A stretch of 64,000 bases of DNA from positions 1 to 64,000 of the forward strand of contig JACRCV010000050.1 in NCBI GenBank assembly GCA_016218825.1, given 5' to 3'. Below the pieces are notes generated by a model. It ran no database searches. It had not been told where the DNA came from and was given only the letters and a program-made list of their open reading frames with translations. The position numbers and the translations under genes are program-made. The stretch is from Deltaproteobacteria bacterium (GTDB lineage Bacteria > Myxococcota > XYA12-FULL-58-9). This document shows, piece after piece, positions 28,361 through 35,426 of the stretch. The number at the start of each line of letters is the position of its first letter. Positions within the stretch are counted from its first letter, which is position 1.

Positions 28361-29242
28361 TCAGCGGCTCGCCGCCTGGATGGCGGGGATCATCTGCTTC
28401 ACTAGGAGCTGCGTGAGGACGTCGTTGGTGCACGTCGCGCGCGCCTCTTCCATGGCCTCGGGGCGAGTCGGGCTCACGACGCGCCCCGCGCCGCTGATCA
28501 GGCTGCGGATCGCCTTGCCGGGATAGCCGGCGAGGATCAGCTTGATCTCGCAGGTCAGCCGCACCTTGTCGCCCTCGGGGCTGGTGCGCAGCGGCTCCAC
28601 CTGCACGATCACGGTGACCGCGCGGCGGACCCCGGCCTTCTTCAGGTCGGCGGGGGTCGGCGGCTGCGCGCCGGGCCAGTCGGTGACGAAGGTCGGCTCG
28701 CCGGCCAACAGCTGGTCGCGGGTGGCGCCGAGGATCTCGGCCACCGCCGCGGCCCCGAGCTCGGTCGCCGAGCTGTCGAACATCTCGACCCGGGTGTAGG
28801 TGGCGCCGCGGAGCTCGCGCGGTCGGGCGGCGCGCTCCACGAACGCCAGCGGCTCGAGGGCCCGGACCGCCGCCTTCTGCGCCGTCGGATCGGGGTCGTC
28901 GCGGGCCAGCCGCTCCACGGTCGCGATCGCCCGCGCCCGCAAGTCCGCGGCGACGCTGCGGTCGATGAGCTTCGCCAACGCGCCGAGCGCCACGGCGCGC
29001 ACGCTCGGCGTCTGGTCGTCGAGCGCCGCCAACAGCGCCGGGATCGCCCGCCGGTCCGCCAGCCGGCCGAGGCCGAGGGCCGCTGACAGGCGGACCTTGA
29101 AGCTCGGATCCTCGCGGAGCTGGCGCACCAGGACGTCGACGGAGCGGTCCTCGGCGCCGGCGGCGATCGCGAGGCGCGCGGCGACGCCGAGCGCGACCAG
29201 CCCGCAAACGAGCCACGTGGGGCGATCCGGCCGCCGGTTCAT
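28361..29242 (-). CDS. Secreted HEAT-repeat protein
   Basis: This 293-residue protein starts at ATG 29242 with GGAG 6 nt upstream; earlier ATG codons at 29254 and 29278 are less well placed. A signal peptide (LVCGLVALGVAARLAIAAGA) precedes HEAT-like helices (EDPSFKVRLSAALGLGRLADRR, IPALLAALDDQTPSVRAVALGAL). A second domain (about 130-293) contains VTVIVQVEPLRTSPEGDKVR, similar to domains seen after HEAT repeats in myxobacterial proteins. It is probably periplasmic. It leads an operon with the two HAMP-like proteins, which suggests a shared sensing or scaffold role. Confidence 0.7.
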   Translation of the reverse strand: MNRRPDRPTWLVCGLVALGVAARLAIAAGAEDRSVDVLVRQLREDPSFKVRLSAALGLGRLADRRAIPALLAALDDQTPSVRAVALGALAKLIDRSVAADLRARAIATVERLARDDPDPTAQKAAVRALEPLAFVERAARPRELRGATYTRVEMFDSSATELGAAAVAEILGATRDQLLAGEPTFVTDWPGAQPPTPADLKKAGVRRAVTVIVQVEPLRTSPEGDKVRLTCEIKLILAGYPGKAIRSLISGAGRVVSPTRPEAMEEARATCTNDVLTQLLVKQMIPAIQAASR

Positions 29243-29368
29243 GCCCCACTCCATGCCATCACGCGAGGAGGCGGACAACTGGTCAGTTTGGCCGAGCGCC
29301 GGGCGTGGCGGTCGTCTCGCGCCCGGCGCGCGTGGACGCCGGCGGTCGATGGCGTGATCGGCGCGCGG

Positions 29369-30052
29369 TCAGCCGCAACAGCAGCAGCCGACCTTGCGAC
29401 CGGCGACGGTGAAGCTCGCGACCTGGATGGCGCCTTTCTCGTAGGGCGCGCTCTCCTCCAGAACTTCGATGTCGGTGAAGCCGCAGCCGCTGATGGTGTC
29501 GAGATACGTCTGGCGCTCGACGGCACCGGCCCAGCACTCGGCCACAGCTTCGGGGTTGGTGCGAAACGCCGCCGGCACCTCGGCGAGCGCGTAGATGTCG
29601 CTGACCACGAAGCGGCCGCCGGGCTTGAGGACGCGATAGATCTCCGCCCACGCAGCCTTCTGGTCGGTCGCGTGGTTCAGGGTGCAGTTCGAAATGACGA
29701 CGTCGGCCACCTGGTCGGGCAGGTCGAGGTCCTCCAGCTCCGCGTGGCGAAACTCGACGTTGGTGACCCCGAGCTCCTCCGCCGCACGCCTGGCTTTCTC
29801 GAGCATGCCGTCGGCGGCGTCGATGCCGTAGACACAGCCCGCGGCACCGACGCTCTCGGCGAGCCGGAGCACGTCCTGACCCCGGCCGCTGCCGATGTCG
29901 ACCACCACCTCTCCGGGCCGCACCTGTGCGCGGTCGGCGGCGCCGCCGCACGACAACGAGCACGACGACTCGGCGAGCTTGGAGTAGCGCGCGTCGATGG
30001 CCCGGGTCACCGCGGTCGGCAAGCGCCGCTTGCCAGGTGAGGCTTGCGTCAT
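29369..30052 (-). CDS. ArsM-like SAM-dependent methyltransferase with Cys-rich tail
   Basis: This 227-residue protein (ATG after GAGGAG) has a class I SAM fold with motif I DIGSGRGQDVLRLA at 52-65. Arsenite S-adenosylmethyltransferases use conserved Cys residues to hold As(III). Here C123 (SNCTLNHATD) and C173 (AECWAGA) fit the second and third positions, and C31/C35 (CSLSC) are extra. The protein ends in C223-C226, a four-Cys run that could bind metalloid. Full ArsM proteins are longer (about 260-400 residues), so this is a short variant. It follows the Met/Cys-rich lipoprotein by 14 nt in one operon. The substrate is inferred, not shown. Confidence 0.7.
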   Translation of the reverse strand: MTQASPGKRRLPTAVTRAIDARYSKLAESSCSLSCGGAADRAQVRPGEVVVDIGSGRGQDVLRLAESVGAAGCVYGIDAADGMLEKARRAAEELGVTNVEFRHAELEDLDLPDQVADVVISNCTLNHATDQKAAWAEIYRVLKPGGRFVVSDIYALAEVPAAFRTNPEAVAECWAGAVERQTYLDTISGCGFTDIEVLEESAPYEKGAIQVASFTVAGRKVGCCCCG

Positions 30053-30066
30053 CGCTGCTCCTCGCG

Positions 30067-30564
30067 TTACGGCTCGCCGCTCGTCCCAGCCTGTCGGTGC
30101 GGACAGCTCCCAGATCCCTGTCCGCCGTTCATTTGGGCGCACTCACCGGTGCTCATGCCCTGGCAGCCAGCGCCCTGACCACCCATCCCCTGACCACCCA
30201 TCCCCTGACCACCCGTCCCCTGACCACCCATCCCCTGACCACCCATCCCCTGACCACTCATGCCGCGGCAACCGCCGGCTTGCCCGTTCATCCCCTGCCC
30301 GGCTTGGTGATGGGGGCAGGTCCCCGGCGCCGCGCCGCCGTCGGCGGCCCGATTGGGACAATTGCACTGTCCGTCCTGGTTGTGTGGACAGGCCGAGCAG
30401 TCGCCGGCGCCGGCCATCGGGCACTCACCGACAGCGTTGGGCTGCGCGGCAGTCGCGAGGGTCTGCTTGCCGGTGCCAGACGCAGCGGGCGCGGTATCGG
30501 CGCCGCAGGCAACGAGGGTGAGCGCGGCCGTCGTAAGGATCGAGAGAAAGGCGAGCTTCTTCAT
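30067..30564 (-). CDS. Cys-, Met- and Gly-rich repeat lipoprotein
   Basis: This 165-residue lipoprotein has a lipobox LVAC with Cys20. After it come Cys-Pro-His/Asn motifs (ACPHN, CNCPN, TCPHH, SCPHR), ten Cys in all, and a central run of five-residue GQGMG repeats that is rich in Met. Such residue patterns bind soft metals, and Met repeats often hold copper(I). No known enzyme domain is present. It is co-transcribed with the ArsM-like gene, so metal or metalloid binding at the cell surface or periplasm is likely. Confidence 0.75.
   Translation of the reverse strand: MKKLAFLSILTTAALTLVACGADTAPAASGTGKQTLATAAQPNAVGECPMAGAGDCSACPHNQDGQCNCPNRAADGGAAPGTCPHHQAGQGMNGQAGGCRGMSGQGMGGQGMGGQGTGGQGMGGQGMGGQGAGCQGMSTGECAQMNGGQGSGSCPHRQAGTSGEP
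30175..30264 (-). repeat. 15-bp tandem repeat in the lipoprotein gene
   Basis: Six units of CTGACCACCCATCCC (one A-to-G variant, last unit diverged) run back to back and encode the G-Q-G-M-G pentamer in frame. The unit length is a multiple of three, so copy-number changes would alter protein length without frameshift. It lies within the lipoprotein gene. Confidence 0.85.
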
Positions 30565-30794
30565 GGTTTTTCCTCAGTCTTCTTCAGCCCGTGCCCAACA
30601 TGAGCCGACACTTCGTCTGGGGCTGCACTGGCCTATGAGCCCTCGGCGACCGAAAACGGTTCGGGCTCCTGGGGGATCCCGCTCGGAGCGCGTCCGTTCC
30701 CACGCGTGCTCGACGCTGCGCCTACTACACGGAAATCCCTGGGCGTCCGCCTCCGGCACAGCCCGTGCAACCAAGGTCCGCAAAAGGAGATCCC

Positions 30795-32390
30795 ATGGTG
30801 CCGTCCCGACTCACGCCAAGCTCCTGGTGCCTCGTCGTCGCGAGCCTCGTCGTCGTGCTCATCGGTTGCGGCAGTGAATCAGACACGAGCCTCACGGACG
30901 CGGTCGACGACCAAGCGTCAGCCGCAACCGCGACCGCCGGGGCCTGCGATCCGACCAGGCAGCCCGCGCCCCATTGGGGCGTGCGCGACGGATGGTGCCG
31001 ACCTTCGTGCGGCGGCCTCGGCGGCACCAACTGCCAGCCGAGCAGCTGTCCCTCGGGCTACGCCCCAGTCGCAAACGGCCCATCCTACGACTGCGGCGCC
31101 TGCTGCGTGCAAACCGCGACGGCAGGGGTGTGCAACCCGACCACCCAGCCCTCGCCGGATTGGGGCGTGAGGGACGGCGTCTGTCGCAAGTCGTGTGGGC
31201 AGCTCGGCGGCACCAGCTGCGAGGCGCGCAGCTGCCCGGCCGGCTACGCGCCGGTGGCGAACGGCCCGTCTTATGACTGCGGCGCCTGTTGCGTGCCGAC
31301 CGCGACCGCCGGCGTGTGCAACCCGACCACCCAGCCGTCGCCGCACTGGGGCGTGAAGGACGGCGTCTGCCGCAGATCGTGCGGGCAGCTCGGCGGCACC
31401 AGCTGCCAGGCGAGCAGCTGTCCCGCGGGCAGCGTGCCGGTCGCCGATGGCCCGTCCTATGACTGCGGCGCTTGCTGCAAGAGCGCCTCGGCCAGCGCCT
31501 TCCCGACCTTCGATGACCTCTGGAACCGGCGCGCGGCGTTTGCGGTCGACCAAGATCCGGTGCCGGTGCGAGACTCCTACGCCGGGCACCGCGAAGCCTT
31601 CGCGGTCAACCGCACCGACATCGGCGCGCGCACGGTCTACCTGTACCATCGCTGTTTCTTGCCGGGGAGCGACGCCAGCATCTGCCTGTCGTTGTCGTCC
31701 GACGGCGGCCAGACGTTTCCCAACTACCGCGGTCAGGTGGTCGCGCCCGAGCCGGGCCACATCTTCGCGGTCGCGCCGTCGGTGGCGAAGGTCGGCAACA
31801 CCTGGGTCATGGTCTACGAGGAGTCGAACGTCGCCGCGGTCTACTGGGCGGAGTCGAGCGACGGCCTGACGTGGCAGCGGCGCGGCCTCCTGATCGGGCA
31901 CGGCGGCGGCGGCGCCTGGGACGCGGTCACCGCGACCCCCGGCATCTTCGTCGACCAGGGCAGGATCTACGTGTTCTACGCCGGCTTCGCGGCCGGCGCC
32001 ACCGACATGAACATCGGCTACGCCGCCGGGACGAGCATGACGTCGCTCTCCAAGTACTCCGGCAACCCGGTGTTTCGGCACGCCGCGTCCGGTTGGGACG
32101 GCGGCCACGTCTCGATGCCCAAGGTCGTGCGCGAGGGGAGCTGGTACTACATGATCTACGAGGGCGCGGACCTCGACTACACCTGCAACGCCAACAATCG
32201 CTACGGGTTCGGGGTGGCCAGGAGCAGCGACCTGCGCGCCTGGGAGCGCTTCGCCGCCAACCCGATCCGTCGATCGGCCGACGGTTGCGGCAACGACATG
32301 CCGTCGCCGTTCGTGCGCTACGACGGCAAGATCTTCGCCTACCACACCTCCGACGACACCCGCCGCATCGTCCGCGAGACCGTCAGATAG
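30795..32390 (+). CDS. Lipoprotein with triple Cys-rich module and glycosidase-like propeller
   Basis: This 531-residue protein starts at ATG 30795 with AGGAG upstream. The signal ends in LIGC. Three near-identical Cys-rich modules of about 55 residues follow, each with about eight Cys in H-W-G-V-x-D-G-x-C-R-x-S-C and Y-D-C-G-A-C-C patterns. The C-terminal 320 residues resemble the five-bladed propeller of glycoside hydrolase families 43/130-like proteins (IFAVAPSVAKVGNTWVMVYEE, IYVFYAGFAAGATDMNIGYA, VSMPKVVREGSWYYMIYEGAD). I cannot confirm catalytic acids. The Cys modules may bind carbohydrate or the envelope. Monocistronic. Confidence 0.75.
   Translation: MVPSRLTPSSWCLVVASLVVVLIGCGSESDTSLTDAVDDQASAATATAGACDPTRQPAPHWGVRDGWCRPSCGGLGGTNCQPSSCPSGYAPVANGPSYDCGACCVQTATAGVCNPTTQPSPDWGVRDGVCRKSCGQLGGTSCEARSCPAGYAPVANGPSYDCGACCVPTATAGVCNPTTQPSPHWGVKDGVCRRSCGQLGGTSCQASSCPAGSVPVADGPSYDCGACCKSASASAFPTFDDLWNRRAAFAVDQDPVPVRDSYAGHREAFAVNRTDIGARTVYLYHRCFLPGSDASICLSLSSDGGQTFPNYRGQVVAPEPGHIFAVAPSVAKVGNTWVMVYEESNVAAVYWAESSDGLTWQRRGLLIGHGGGGAWDAVTATPGIFVDQGRIYVFYAGFAAGATDMNIGYAAGTSMTSLSKYSGNPVFRHAASGWDGGHVSMPKVVREGSWYYMIYEGADLDYTCNANNRYGFGVARSSDLRAWERFAANPIRRSADGCGNDMPSPFVRYDGKIFAYHTSDDTRRIVRETVR
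30943..31480 (+). repeat. Triplicated Cys-rich module, about 186-bp unit
   Basis: Three direct repeats encode T-A-G-x-C-(D/N)-P-T-x-Q-P and C-G-A-C-C modules with high DNA identity, especially units two and three. It is an internal triplication inside the lipoprotein gene. Confidence 0.85.
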
Positions 32391-32446
32391 CCGCCGCGGG
32401 CGGCGATCCGGCGCGTCGCCGGCCGCGACCCATCATCGCGCGCGGC

Positions 32447-33064
32447 TCAGCCGTCGTCGTTCTGCAGCTGCGCCAACACCGCCCGCACCCGGGCATAGTC
32501 CCCCTCGGCGATCGAGCCGGCGCGCACGCAGCGCACCTTGCCGTTCGGGGCGACGATGATGGTGATCGGGATCGCGGTCCCGGCCTTCAGACCGTAGCGC
32601 TCGATCCAGGCGTCGAGCTCGTCCGGGGCGCTCACCCGCATTGAATGAACGCCGGCGAGCACCGGGTGTCGGCGGACGAGCTGCTGCAGCTCCGGCCCCG
32701 GTTGGTCCAGCGACAGATACCAGTTCTCGATGGTGACGCCCTCGCTGCGCAGGTGCTCGCCGAAGGTCACGATGAGCGGCAGCTCGCGCACGCAGGGCTT
32801 GCACCAGGTGGCCCAGAGGTTCAACCACACCCAGGTGGACGGCGGCACCCGCAGCCCGGCGCCCGGGCCGAGAGGCACTGCGGGCGGCAGGCTCAGAGCC
32901 GGCGCCTTCGCGGCGCTGTAGTGGACGTCGCACCACGCGGCGGCCGAGACCTCGGGGCGGCTCGCGGCGACGACCTCGGCGCGCTGGCGCATCGGCTCGA
33001 CGCTTGGCTGCCGCTGGCAGCCGACGCCGGCGCAGAGGAGCAGCGCCCAAGGGAGACGGCTCAC
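32447..33064 (-). CDS. TlpA-like thioredoxin, lipoprotein-like signal
   Basis: This 205-residue protein starts at GTG 33064, overlapping the previous stop (GTGA). The N-terminus (LPWALLLCAGVGCQRQ) is a signal peptide, possibly with a weak lipobox around Cys16. The thioredoxin fold has WCKPC (Cys88, Cys91) and a cis-Pro loop TAIPITIIVAPNGK. It is likely a periplasmic reductase or oxidase of protein disulphides. It is the last gene of the three-gene operon with the OmpA-like protein and the VKOR-thioredoxin fusion. Start choice rests on the overlap, since earlier in-frame codons run through the OmpA-like gene. Confidence 0.82.
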   Translation of the reverse strand: MSRLPWALLLCAGVGCQRQPSVEPMRQRAEVVAASRPEVSAAAWCDVHYSAAKAPALSLPPAVPLGPGAGLRVPPSTWVWLNLWATWCKPCVRELPLIVTFGEHLRSEGVTIENWYLSLDQPGPELQQLVRRHPVLAGVHSMRVSAPDELDAWIERYGLKAGTAIPITIIVAPNGKVRCVRAGSIAEGDYARVRAVLAQLQNDDG

Positions 33065-33756
33065 AGCCGGCAATCGATCCAGGCGAGAAACGCCGATCGG
33101 TTGAGCTCGGCAGAGGTGCAGGCCGCACCCGCCCGGGACCGGTTCCACTGGCTGAATTCCTGATCCAGCTGGGCGTACTCCTCGCCCAACCACAAGAGCC
33201 CCACCTCTTGCTCGAGATCGGGGTCGTGGTACTTGTCCTTCAGGTAGCCGAGCACCGCCTCGGCGCGCTGCTCCGAGAGAGCGCGGTTGTGCGTCATGCT
33301 GCCTTCCGGGGAGGCGCGGGAGACCACCAGGAAGTAGGACGCGCCGCGCTGGTCGGAGAAGGTCTGGTCCAGAAGCGTCCGGCCCGCGTCGTCGAGCTCG
33401 GCCTTGTCGAGGTCGAACTGCACGATGCCGGCGCGCTTGGCGAGCGGCCGGAACAGCGCGTTGAAGTCGTTGCCGCTCATTGCCGCGACGCTCTTGGCCT
33501 CGAGGGGCTGACAGCCGCGACCCCGGTCACGGTGCACGAGGCCGCAGGAGGTGAGGACCCGCTTCAGGATCTTCTTGAGCTCCGCGGTGCAGTAGCCCTC
33601 ATCGGCCGCAGCGGCGACCGCGGCGGTCTTCTCGGCCGGCGTGGCCCGCGTCGCCTCGACCCGCGCCGCGGCGCCATGCACCCACACGCCGACGAGCAGC
33701 GCCGCGAGCGCCAGGCCCGCGACCGTACACACGACTTGGATGGTGCTCGGCTTCAT
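33061..33756 (-). CDS. Small OmpA-like membrane-anchored protein
   Basis: This 231-residue protein has one N-terminal TM segment (about 9-29) and a short linker. A C-terminal region (about 110-190) has OmpA-like features: QFDLDKAELDDAGRTLLDQ, FLVVSRASPEG, and HNRALSEQRAEAVLGYLKDKY, where the Asp/Arg pair that binds peptidoglycan is partly preserved. Four further Cys pairs are present (YC, SC, GC, AC). The ATG overlaps the previous stop (ATGA). I infer that it tethers the redox proteins to the cell wall or forms a peptidoglycan-linked scaffold. Confidence 0.7.
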   Translation of the reverse strand: MKPSTIQVVCTVAGLALAALLVGVWVHGAAARVEATRATPAEKTAAVAAAADEGYCTAELKKILKRVLTSCGLVHRDRGRGCQPLEAKSVAAMSGNDFNALFRPLAKRAGIVQFDLDKAELDDAGRTLLDQTFSDQRGASYFLVVSRASPEGSMTHNRALSEQRAEAVLGYLKDKYHDPDLEQEVGLLWLGEEYAQLDQEFSQWNRSRAGAACTSAELNRSAFLAWIDCRL

Positions 33757-35258
33757 GGCGTCACCTCGTGGCCCGCGGCCCCAGGATTGGTTTCCCCGCC
33801 GCCCGGTTGTTGGTCGTCGCTCGGGGCGGCGGCGGCGTTGTCCGCCGGTGGCGGCAGCTTCTCCTCGGCGGGCTTCGCGGCGGGCTCACCCGCGCCGGCC
33901 GGCGCCGCGGTCGGCTCTGCCGCCGGCTCACCCCCGGGCGGTACGGCGTCGGCAGCCGGGGCCGGTGGCGCGAGCGCTGCATCCGGCTCGGCGACACCTT
34001 GCGGGCTCGGGAGCGGCGGCGGGGTCGGCGCTGACTTGCGACTACCCCCGGCGGGCTTCTGGGGCGTCGCTGCGGCCATCGGCCCGATGACCTGGGTGAG
34101 GGTGTACTCCAGGCCCAGATCGGTGTCTTCGTCACACAGGCGATTGCCGCGCACGTAGAGCTGCGGCGTCGAGATCGGCAGCGAGTTGGCCACCGTCCAG
34201 CGCAGCGCCTTGTTGAGGCGCGCCTTGACCTCCGGTCGGTCGACACAGCCGGCCAGGTCGGGGAACGCCTGCGTCACCTTGACGCGCACGCTCGCGGGCT
34301 CCTTGGCGGCGGCTTCCCGCAGCTCGCTTTGGTGGTCGAAGGCCCAGGTCACGACGTCGTTGGCGCGGGCGCCGGCGCACAACACCGCCTCGCTCACCGC
34401 GCATGCCCCCGGATGCACGGACTCGCCGAGCATCCAGTTGCACTCTTTGTCGAGCGGGAACAAGGCGGCCTCGAGATCGATGCCGTCCATCAGCCCGGTC
34501 GCGTGCAGGCGATCGTGCACCCCCTTGCAGGCCGGACACAGCGGGTCGAGCACCTCGATCGCCGGGGTGCCTCCTTCGGCGCTGTGGAGCTTGACCCGGG
34601 TGCTGTAGGTGTCTTGCGGCCGGAGGAGCTTGCCGCAGCGGCCGAGCTCGCCGCGGACGTCGGGCTTGAGGCCGAGGTAGAGCAGCACCGGCACGGCGAC
34701 GAACGCCACGCCGACGGCAAACTGTCCGAGATCGCGGCCCCAGGGCAGCGCGCCTTGCGGCGCGGGCGTGCGCCGGTGGGCGACGAGCGCGGCGACGAAA
34801 GCGGCCACCGACGCGACGTAGACGCCGGCGCAAAGCTTGCAGACGACCCCGACGACCAACACCGAGATGAAGAAGTAGGCGATCGAGGTCAAGAGCGGCA
34901 GCGCGGTCGCCGCCAGCAGATACCGGGTCTCCGCCGGATCGTCCTCGCGCCGACGCCACAGCACGTCGATCGCCTTGAAGGCCAGGTAGATGAACACCGC
35001 GAGCGCCGGCAGCGCGATCGGGATCCCGCCCCAGGTGCTGGTGCGCCAGACCGCGGCGTACGGGCTCATCATCACCGCGAAGCAGCCGGAGGCGCCGCTG
35101 GCGTCCGCCGCCCCCAGGCCCGGCACGTAGGTGCAGGTGATGGCGTGCACCTGGCGATCGAGGTGTTGGATGAAGTCATAGGTGCTGGTGCCAGCGAACA
35201 GGGCGCCGACGGCGGCGGACACGACGACGAGCGACACTGCGGTGCGGTTGGATTTCAC
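33753..35258 (-). CDS. VKOR-thioredoxin fusion oxidoreductase
   Basis: This 501-residue inner-membrane protein starts at GTG 35258 after GGAGGTCC. The N-terminal half (about 1-195) is a vitamin K epoxide reductase homologue with four or five TM segments, loop Cys42 and Cys59, and an active C140-x-x-C143 (VCKLCAG). The C-terminal part is a periplasmic thioredoxin-like domain with C241PAC244 and a cis-Pro loop. VKOR uses quinone to regenerate the thioredoxin, so the fusion makes disulphides in secreted proteins. The last 120 residues are Pro/Ala-rich and disordered. It is the first gene of a three-gene redox operon. Confidence 0.9.
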   Translation of the reverse strand: MKSNRTAVSLVVVSAAVGALFAGTSTYDFIQHLDRQVHAITCTYVPGLGAADASGASGCFAVMMSPYAAVWRTSTWGGIPIALPALAVFIYLAFKAIDVLWRRREDDPAETRYLLAATALPLLTSIAYFFISVLVVGVVCKLCAGVYVASVAAFVAALVAHRRTPAPQGALPWGRDLGQFAVGVAFVAVPVLLYLGLKPDVRGELGRCGKLLRPQDTYSTRVKLHSAEGGTPAIEVLDPLCPACKGVHDRLHATGLMDGIDLEAALFPLDKECNWMLGESVHPGACAVSEAVLCAGARANDVVTWAFDHQSELREAAAKEPASVRVKVTQAFPDLAGCVDRPEVKARLNKALRWTVANSLPISTPQLYVRGNRLCDEDTDLGLEYTLTQVIGPMAAATPQKPAGGSRKSAPTPPPLPSPQGVAEPDAALAPPAPAADAVPPGGEPAAEPTAAPAGAGEPAAKPAEEKLPPPADNAAAAPSDDQQPGGGETNPGAAGHEVTP

Positions 35259-35426
35259 GGCGGACCTCCGGGGCGGCAGCCTTGCGCATCCGCTCGGTCG
35301 GAGCAAGCCTGTCGTGTGCGGGCGAAGGCCGGCGCCCGCCCGCCAGGGGGCCGAGGTCGGTCTCGCCTGGCCGCGCCGCTCCATCTGGGCTAGGTACAGC
35401 GCTGCGACCGCGACCTGAGGGACGGG

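Follow-up and report, generated by a model that had tools for sequence, protein, structure and literature searches.

We analysed a window of 64,000 nucleotides from a Myxococcota genome (contig JACRCV010000050.1, positions 1 to 64,000), in which two neighboring genes on the reverse strand encode a putative lipoprotein of 165 amino acids, rich in Cys, Met, Gly and Gln (30067 to 30564), and a short ArsM-like SAM-dependent methyltransferase of 227 amino acids (29369 to 30052). The coordinates of the initial annotation are correct; the lipoprotein gene comes first and the two are separated by 14 nt. A purine-rich stretch resembling a ribosome-binding site precedes each start, and judging from this layout the genes are probably carried on one transcript. 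The methyltransferase starts with the ATG at 30052; a frame of 257 amino acids beginning with GTG is a mechanical extension. Its third-position G+C is 0.89, like that of the neighboring genes. The coding evidence for the lipoprotein is weaker than for the enzyme, given its low complexity, a third-position G+C of 0.75 versus 0.89 and open frames on the opposite strand.

The ArsM-like identity of the enzyme is supported by both its sequence and its predicted fold. It scores 196.6 bits against the NCBIfam arsenite methyltransferase model NF008823, below the cut-off of 263, as do four of its relatives; two plasmid ArsM included as controls reach 286.4 and 354.1 bits. The Pfam match is Methyltransf_31 (114.6 bits), and the nearest solved structures by sequence are ArsM enzymes. 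An AlphaFold2 model built from 34 sequences (pLDDT 89.4) was compared with the PDB using Foldseek, and the top 13 rows were all ArsM/AS3MT chains (rmsd 8.6–9.5, query TM 0.70–0.74). The window enzyme thus shares with ArsM/AS3MT a Rossmann methyltransferase core and three As(III)-binding Cys in register, together with its best sequence and fold matches (NF008823; CmArsM, 4fr0). In the two plasmid ArsM, a stretch of about 35 residues that the window enzyme lacks separates the first Cys pair from the equivalent of CmArsM C72. The window enzyme also has a shorter C-terminal part and lies outside any ars operon, whereas both plasmid genes adjoin arsR and arsC, with arsH or Acr3. An ArsM-like core is also found in the methyltransferase selenoproteins NF041537, NF041536 and NF047649, against which the window protein scores 118–125 bits. 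However, these scores are far from the cut-offs of 460–575 bits, the protein has no fused second domain, and a search of the gene for an in-frame TGA, as expected of a selenocysteine form, found none.

In a phmmer alignment, C35, C123 and C173 of the window enzyme align with residues 72, 174 and 224 of CmArsM. One report (PMC3877260) describes C72, C174 and C224 as the As-binding residues of CmArsM, all three being required for the first methylation and C174 and C224 sufficing for the second. The initial annotation had recognized the two late positions, C123 (codon 29684 to 29686, reverse strand) and C173 (29534 to 29536, reverse strand), and had not named C35. The latter lies in SSCSLSCGG (29942 to 29968, reverse strand), the window version of the family motif CCLSCGGA. 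Column counts in an alignment of 59 rows, comprising 46 family loci, 12 further Myxococcota sequences and the window enzyme, show Cys at all three positions in every row. Two sequences (L095 and L100) were removed from this alignment by a motif filter, and by eye both keep the three Cys. C31 and the position of Ser32 are Cys in 47 of the 59 rows. Ser32 is replaced by Cys in all 33 other rows of a second alignment (A1), in which three further nearly fixed family positions also differ in the window enzyme; Cys32 is likewise missing from most Myxococcota relatives of a second clade. The ArsM-like character of the enzyme and its retention of the As(III)-binding triad of Cys make a soft metalloid the best guess for its methyl acceptor.

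The enzyme ends in four consecutive Cys (residues 223–226; 29375 to 29386, reverse strand), followed by one Gly and the stop codon. This tail had been noted at the outset, along with the expectation that its conservation in homologs would bear on the metalloid reading. Conservation proved divided, with at least two Cys within the last 20 residues in 31 of the 59 rows and fewer than two in the remaining 28. Because two or more Cys near the C-terminus occur in just this share of the family, we regard the tail as common yet dispensable.

The composition of the lipoprotein is as the initial annotation described it. A signal peptide and a lipobox (LVAC, 30505 to 30516, reverse strand, containing Cys20) were assigned by eye; of its 11 Cys, 10 lie C-terminal to Cys20, and CPH motifs occur at residues 59, 83 and 154. 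Repeat analysis located a tandem repeat of 15 bp in 5.9 copies (30173 to 30261) that encodes a GGQGM-like repeat. The sole NCBIfam match is PG1828_fam_lipo, confined to the signal region (16.2 bits against a cut-off of 50), and a Pfam scan assigned no family. A search for full-length relatives in 146 Myxococcota genomes recovered the protein itself and none in the other 145. Partial matches in nine other genomes (E values of 1.5e-5 to 9.4e-4) cover mostly the Met/Gly/Gln stretch. The same-genus genome (G001) encodes the methyltransferase and has no full-length match to the lipoprotein; its contig (C183) ends inside an OmpA homolog, so that synteny at the site is unreadable there.

The lipoprotein search in these genomes led us to reject a conserved lipoprotein–methyltransferase pair. 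The suggestion that the two proteins form a metalloid-binding and methylating unit therefore stands in part: the enzyme is ArsM-like and has the three As(III)-binding Cys, but a conserved partnership is unsupported, because the tail is not conserved and none of the 145 other genomes has a full-length counterpart of the lipoprotein. A narrower version would be a lineage-specific two-gene resistance unit, in which the lipoprotein would serve to bind a metalloid outside the cytoplasmic membrane, detoxification being the task of the methyltransferase. The close spacing on one strand, the metal-ligand composition of the lipoprotein and the As-type Cys triad are all consistent with this arrangement. 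However, even the same-genus genome is without the lipoprotein, the two products would occupy different compartments, and low-complexity sequence is no proof of binding; we consider such a unit unlikely.

Consistent with what had been observed initially, we found no ars regulator or pump among the five neighboring genes scanned (28361 to 35267). An Acr3 arsenite efflux pump scoring above its cut-off is encoded elsewhere in the same genome, far from the pair (contig C13, 47280 to 48269). On the forward strand of the window, the product of 30795 to 32390 looks secreted and has three Cys-rich repeats, each about 60 amino acids long, with a weak GH43-like stretch after them (27.9 bits against a cut-off of 32.2). 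On the reverse strand, 32447 to 35267 carries AhpC/TSA-like, OmpA-like and VKOR genes in a row, with thiol-redox functions represented 2–5 kb from the pair; the VKOR gene has 71% identity to a copy in the same-genus genome.

The partners of the enzyme family are not visible from the window, since the window genome is without the peptide and the radical SAM enzyme that accompany its relatives. To describe these relatives we defined the family as 46 of 75 loci in the genome_contigs set (L009–L053 and L057; 50–72% identity), with six weaker loci assigned to an outgroup and 23 unused. The methyltransferase is accompanied by a peptide of 30–50 amino acids ending in AQCCAKxSxxxxGCHD in 45 of the 46 loci, and at the remaining locus (L038) the contig stops at MKSLVKKARK, the opening residues of such a peptide. 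Counting duplicates, 62 peptide copies present 31 different sequences over the last 16 residues, all of the form AQCCAKxSxxxxGCHD, although the search pattern had not included the A and Q. The leader is basic, with a mean of 33% Lys plus Arg across 41 different peptides. Some precursors have a second CC motif ahead of the core (L057, L092, L093, L095, L096 and L102). No NCBIfam match was obtained for four precursors and no Pfam match for one precursor.

Downstream of the methyltransferase and on the same strand, 44 of the 46 loci encode a radical SAM enzyme of about 440 amino acids, and the peptide is encoded between the two. The two loci without it lie near contig ends, and one of them (L016) breaks off in what by eye looks like the first part of a radical SAM gene. 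The methyltransferase and radical SAM genes are 62–500 nt apart at all of these loci but L049 (3114 nt) and L051 (2487 nt), where unrelated genes intervene; in the former the peptide accompanies the radical SAM gene, in the latter the methyltransferase. The CxxxCxxC motif and the C-terminal Cys clusters are invariant in 30 aligned copies. Based on the alignment, we call the C-terminal cluster SPASM-like; Pfam detected the radical SAM domain and not the SPASM model in the one copy scanned.

A structural model of the radical SAM enzyme of the relatives (pLDDT 89.2) matched 5wgg/5why, PDB entries on sactipeptide thioether formation, at ranks 1–3, with SuiB next; ChlB and SkfB also match. Identity to these proteins is 12–18%, so that the fold points to a peptide maturase and not to the type of bond formed. 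The partner enzyme thus resembles the radical SAM/SPASM peptide maturases (5wgg/5why, SuiB; TIGR04463, NF038107 CefB) in predicted fold and Cys clusters. It differs in scoring far under the NCBIfam cut-offs (the L057 copy has TIGR04463 as its best match, 119.9 bits against 525), in its precursor and in having an ArsM-type methyltransferase alongside.

Of 44 loci, 30 have a thioredoxin/thioredoxin-reductase fusion after the radical SAM gene, or 28 of the 37 that leave 1400 nt or more for it; its domains were identified with Pfam on the L025 copy and the remaining copies were assigned by similarity cluster. Eleven loci have a DUF1847 gene (one copy checked with Pfam) and eight a MarR-type gene. 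To survey the surroundings we scanned 123 of 143 selected neighbors, the selection excluding loci L024 and L037 and the thioredoxin-fusion and DUF1847 clusters. No ars genes near the cassette appeared among the best 25 of 147 Pfam families and the best 25 of 319 NCBIfam families in these 123 neighbors. In eight Bacteroidota loci, mostly Prolixibacteraceae (L031, L032, L033, L038, L042, L043, L045 and L053), a row of genes resembling contractile tail sheath and tube by eye (clusters c5, c6 and c8) lies upstream of the cassette. A protein of about 54 amino acids with a central DCC motif is encoded near the cassette in seven loci, including L011 (9446 to 9646), L037 (1200 to 1364) and L039 (1 to 327), and one copy had no Pfam match. 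The peptide pattern had no match in the viral_contigs set, which was searched for carriage by phages. We found no description of the cassette in the open-licence literature searched, and it is apparently an undescribed peptide pathway.

The distribution of these genes across the 146 Myxococcota genomes links them closely. This set overlaps with the genome_contigs loci, and L027 and L091 are identical. At E values up to 1e-40, the methyltransferase was detected in 16 genomes and the radical SAM enzyme in 18, 15 of the latter with E values below 1e-100. These 15 are exactly the 16 methyltransferase genomes minus the window genome. The exact peptide pattern occurs in 14 genomes, all within the 15, and the reversed pattern gave no matches; in the one remaining genome (G095), the contig ends 467 bases past the radical SAM gene. 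Each of the 14 peptides shares a contig with the methyltransferase or radical SAM gene and is no more than 2.4 kb away from it. Gene order varies, with the peptide before, between or after the other genes or divergent from them. Because the partners are kept while gene order is free, we interpret the association as a functional link and not as mere synteny. The three other genomes (G112, G124 and G141; loci L121, L122 and L120) have a weaker radical SAM match (32–35% identity, E values of 3e-48 to 5e-43) with no methyltransferase match and no peptide pattern, and their enzymes perhaps represent another, sister maturase family.

The window genome is the exception. It has no radical SAM ortholog at 1e-40; the best match, on another contig, has 28% identity and an E value of 7e-12. 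The AQCCAKxSxxxxGCHD precursor had no match in the whole genome or in a six-frame scan of the window, and a search downstream of the enzyme in six frames and across the genome found no cassette fragments. The thioredoxin/thioredoxin-reductase fusion is also absent, the reductase part alone being matched (residues 124–421, 36% identity). In a phylogenetic tree (omitting L028, L034, L095 and L100), a family clade of 57 rows is separated from eight ArsM-like outgroup rows with support of 100/100. The window enzyme lies inside the family clade as sister to L009 (100/98), probably the same genome as the same-genus genome above because their radical SAM enzymes are 100% identical. Given the lack of peptide and maturase in its genome, we conclude that the window enzyme is a stray member of a cassette-associated family. 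Its nested position among cassette enzymes makes loss of the partners the simplest reading; as the assembly is 96.5% complete, the absence of the cassette could also be an assembly gap.

If the partners were lost, the window copy might itself be a functionless leftover in decay, as the loss of Cys32 could suggest, together with a mean identity to the family slightly below that of its sister (54.5% versus 56.6%, the sister being higher in 28 of 32 comparisons in alignment A1). However, the open frame is full-length, the SAM motifs and catalytic Cys are intact and the third-position G+C matches that of neighboring genes, and we consider decay improbable.

We propose that the window enzyme is a stray member of a clade of short ArsM-type enzymes that elsewhere belong to a peptide-modification cassette, in which the peptide would provide a thiolate ligand and a soft metalloid would be methylated via C35, C123 and C173. 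We see about an even chance that this proposal is correct. Linkage and fold suggest that the radical SAM enzyme would modify the peptide, probably at Cys, and the mature peptide would serve as a conserved thiolate ligand and not as a variable toxin. The methyltransferase would hold a soft metalloid, for example As(III), on its three Cys for methylation by SAM, with the peptide acting as donor, carrier or product. With three thiols each, peptide and enzyme would be suited to the handover of As(III) or another three-coordinate soft metalloid. Thioredoxin is the reductant of ArsM enzymes, and the thioredoxin fusion may likewise be the reductant that restores the thiols. In the window genome, the enzyme may act on the metalloid in free form or while it is bound to the lipoprotein. 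The lack of ars genes near the cassette among the families listed, together with their presence beside the two plasmid ArsM, weakens a role for arsenic, and we regard selenium, tellurium and antimony as equally possible.

Alternatively, and as the main rival to the metalloid reading, the methyltransferase may be a peptide-tailoring enzyme that transfers methyl to the precursor, at Cys, His or some other group, its Cys triad serving for binding, redox or zinc. The tight linkage of the methyltransferase to the short peptide and the radical SAM enzyme fits this explanation, and according to PMC11285071, RiPP pathways include S-methyltransferases in rare cases. PtyS, described there, resembles the cassette enzyme in adjoining a Cys-containing precursor; the ArsM Cys triad sets the cassette enzyme apart. 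Peptide tailoring does not explain why the window copy persists without a peptide, and the sequence and fold of the enzyme are nearest to ArsM/AS3MT, with exactly its three As ligands kept. We consider it possible, though less likely than methylation of a soft metalloid.

The main interest of this locus is the peptide cassette of its relatives, for which we found no entry in the family libraries scanned and no description in the open-licence literature searched. According to tree labels, it occurs in at least six phyla (Myxococcota, Bacteroidota, Spirochaetota, Fibrobacterota, Ignavibacteriota and Fidelibacterota). Antibiotic peptides have variable cores, whereas this core of 16 residues with three Cys is invariant across phyla, which brings it closer to a cofactor or metallophore. 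We speculate, tentatively, that the cassette is a new RiPP-type system with a near-invariant product, in which the radical SAM enzyme turns a three-Cys peptide into a soft-metalloid ligand, ArsM-type methylation takes place on or from the peptide and a dedicated thioredoxin pair supplies electrons, making the product a ribosomal carrier of As (or Se, Te or Sb); the window enzyme would be a copy released from this system. The peptide, maturase and methyltransferase are small and suited to joint expression in E. coli, which opens the question to direct testing. The orphan enzyme and lineage-specific lipoprotein of the window are of lesser interest, but may represent a version that works without the peptide. 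If the proposal is true, metalloid methylation would be joined to ribosomal peptide modification.
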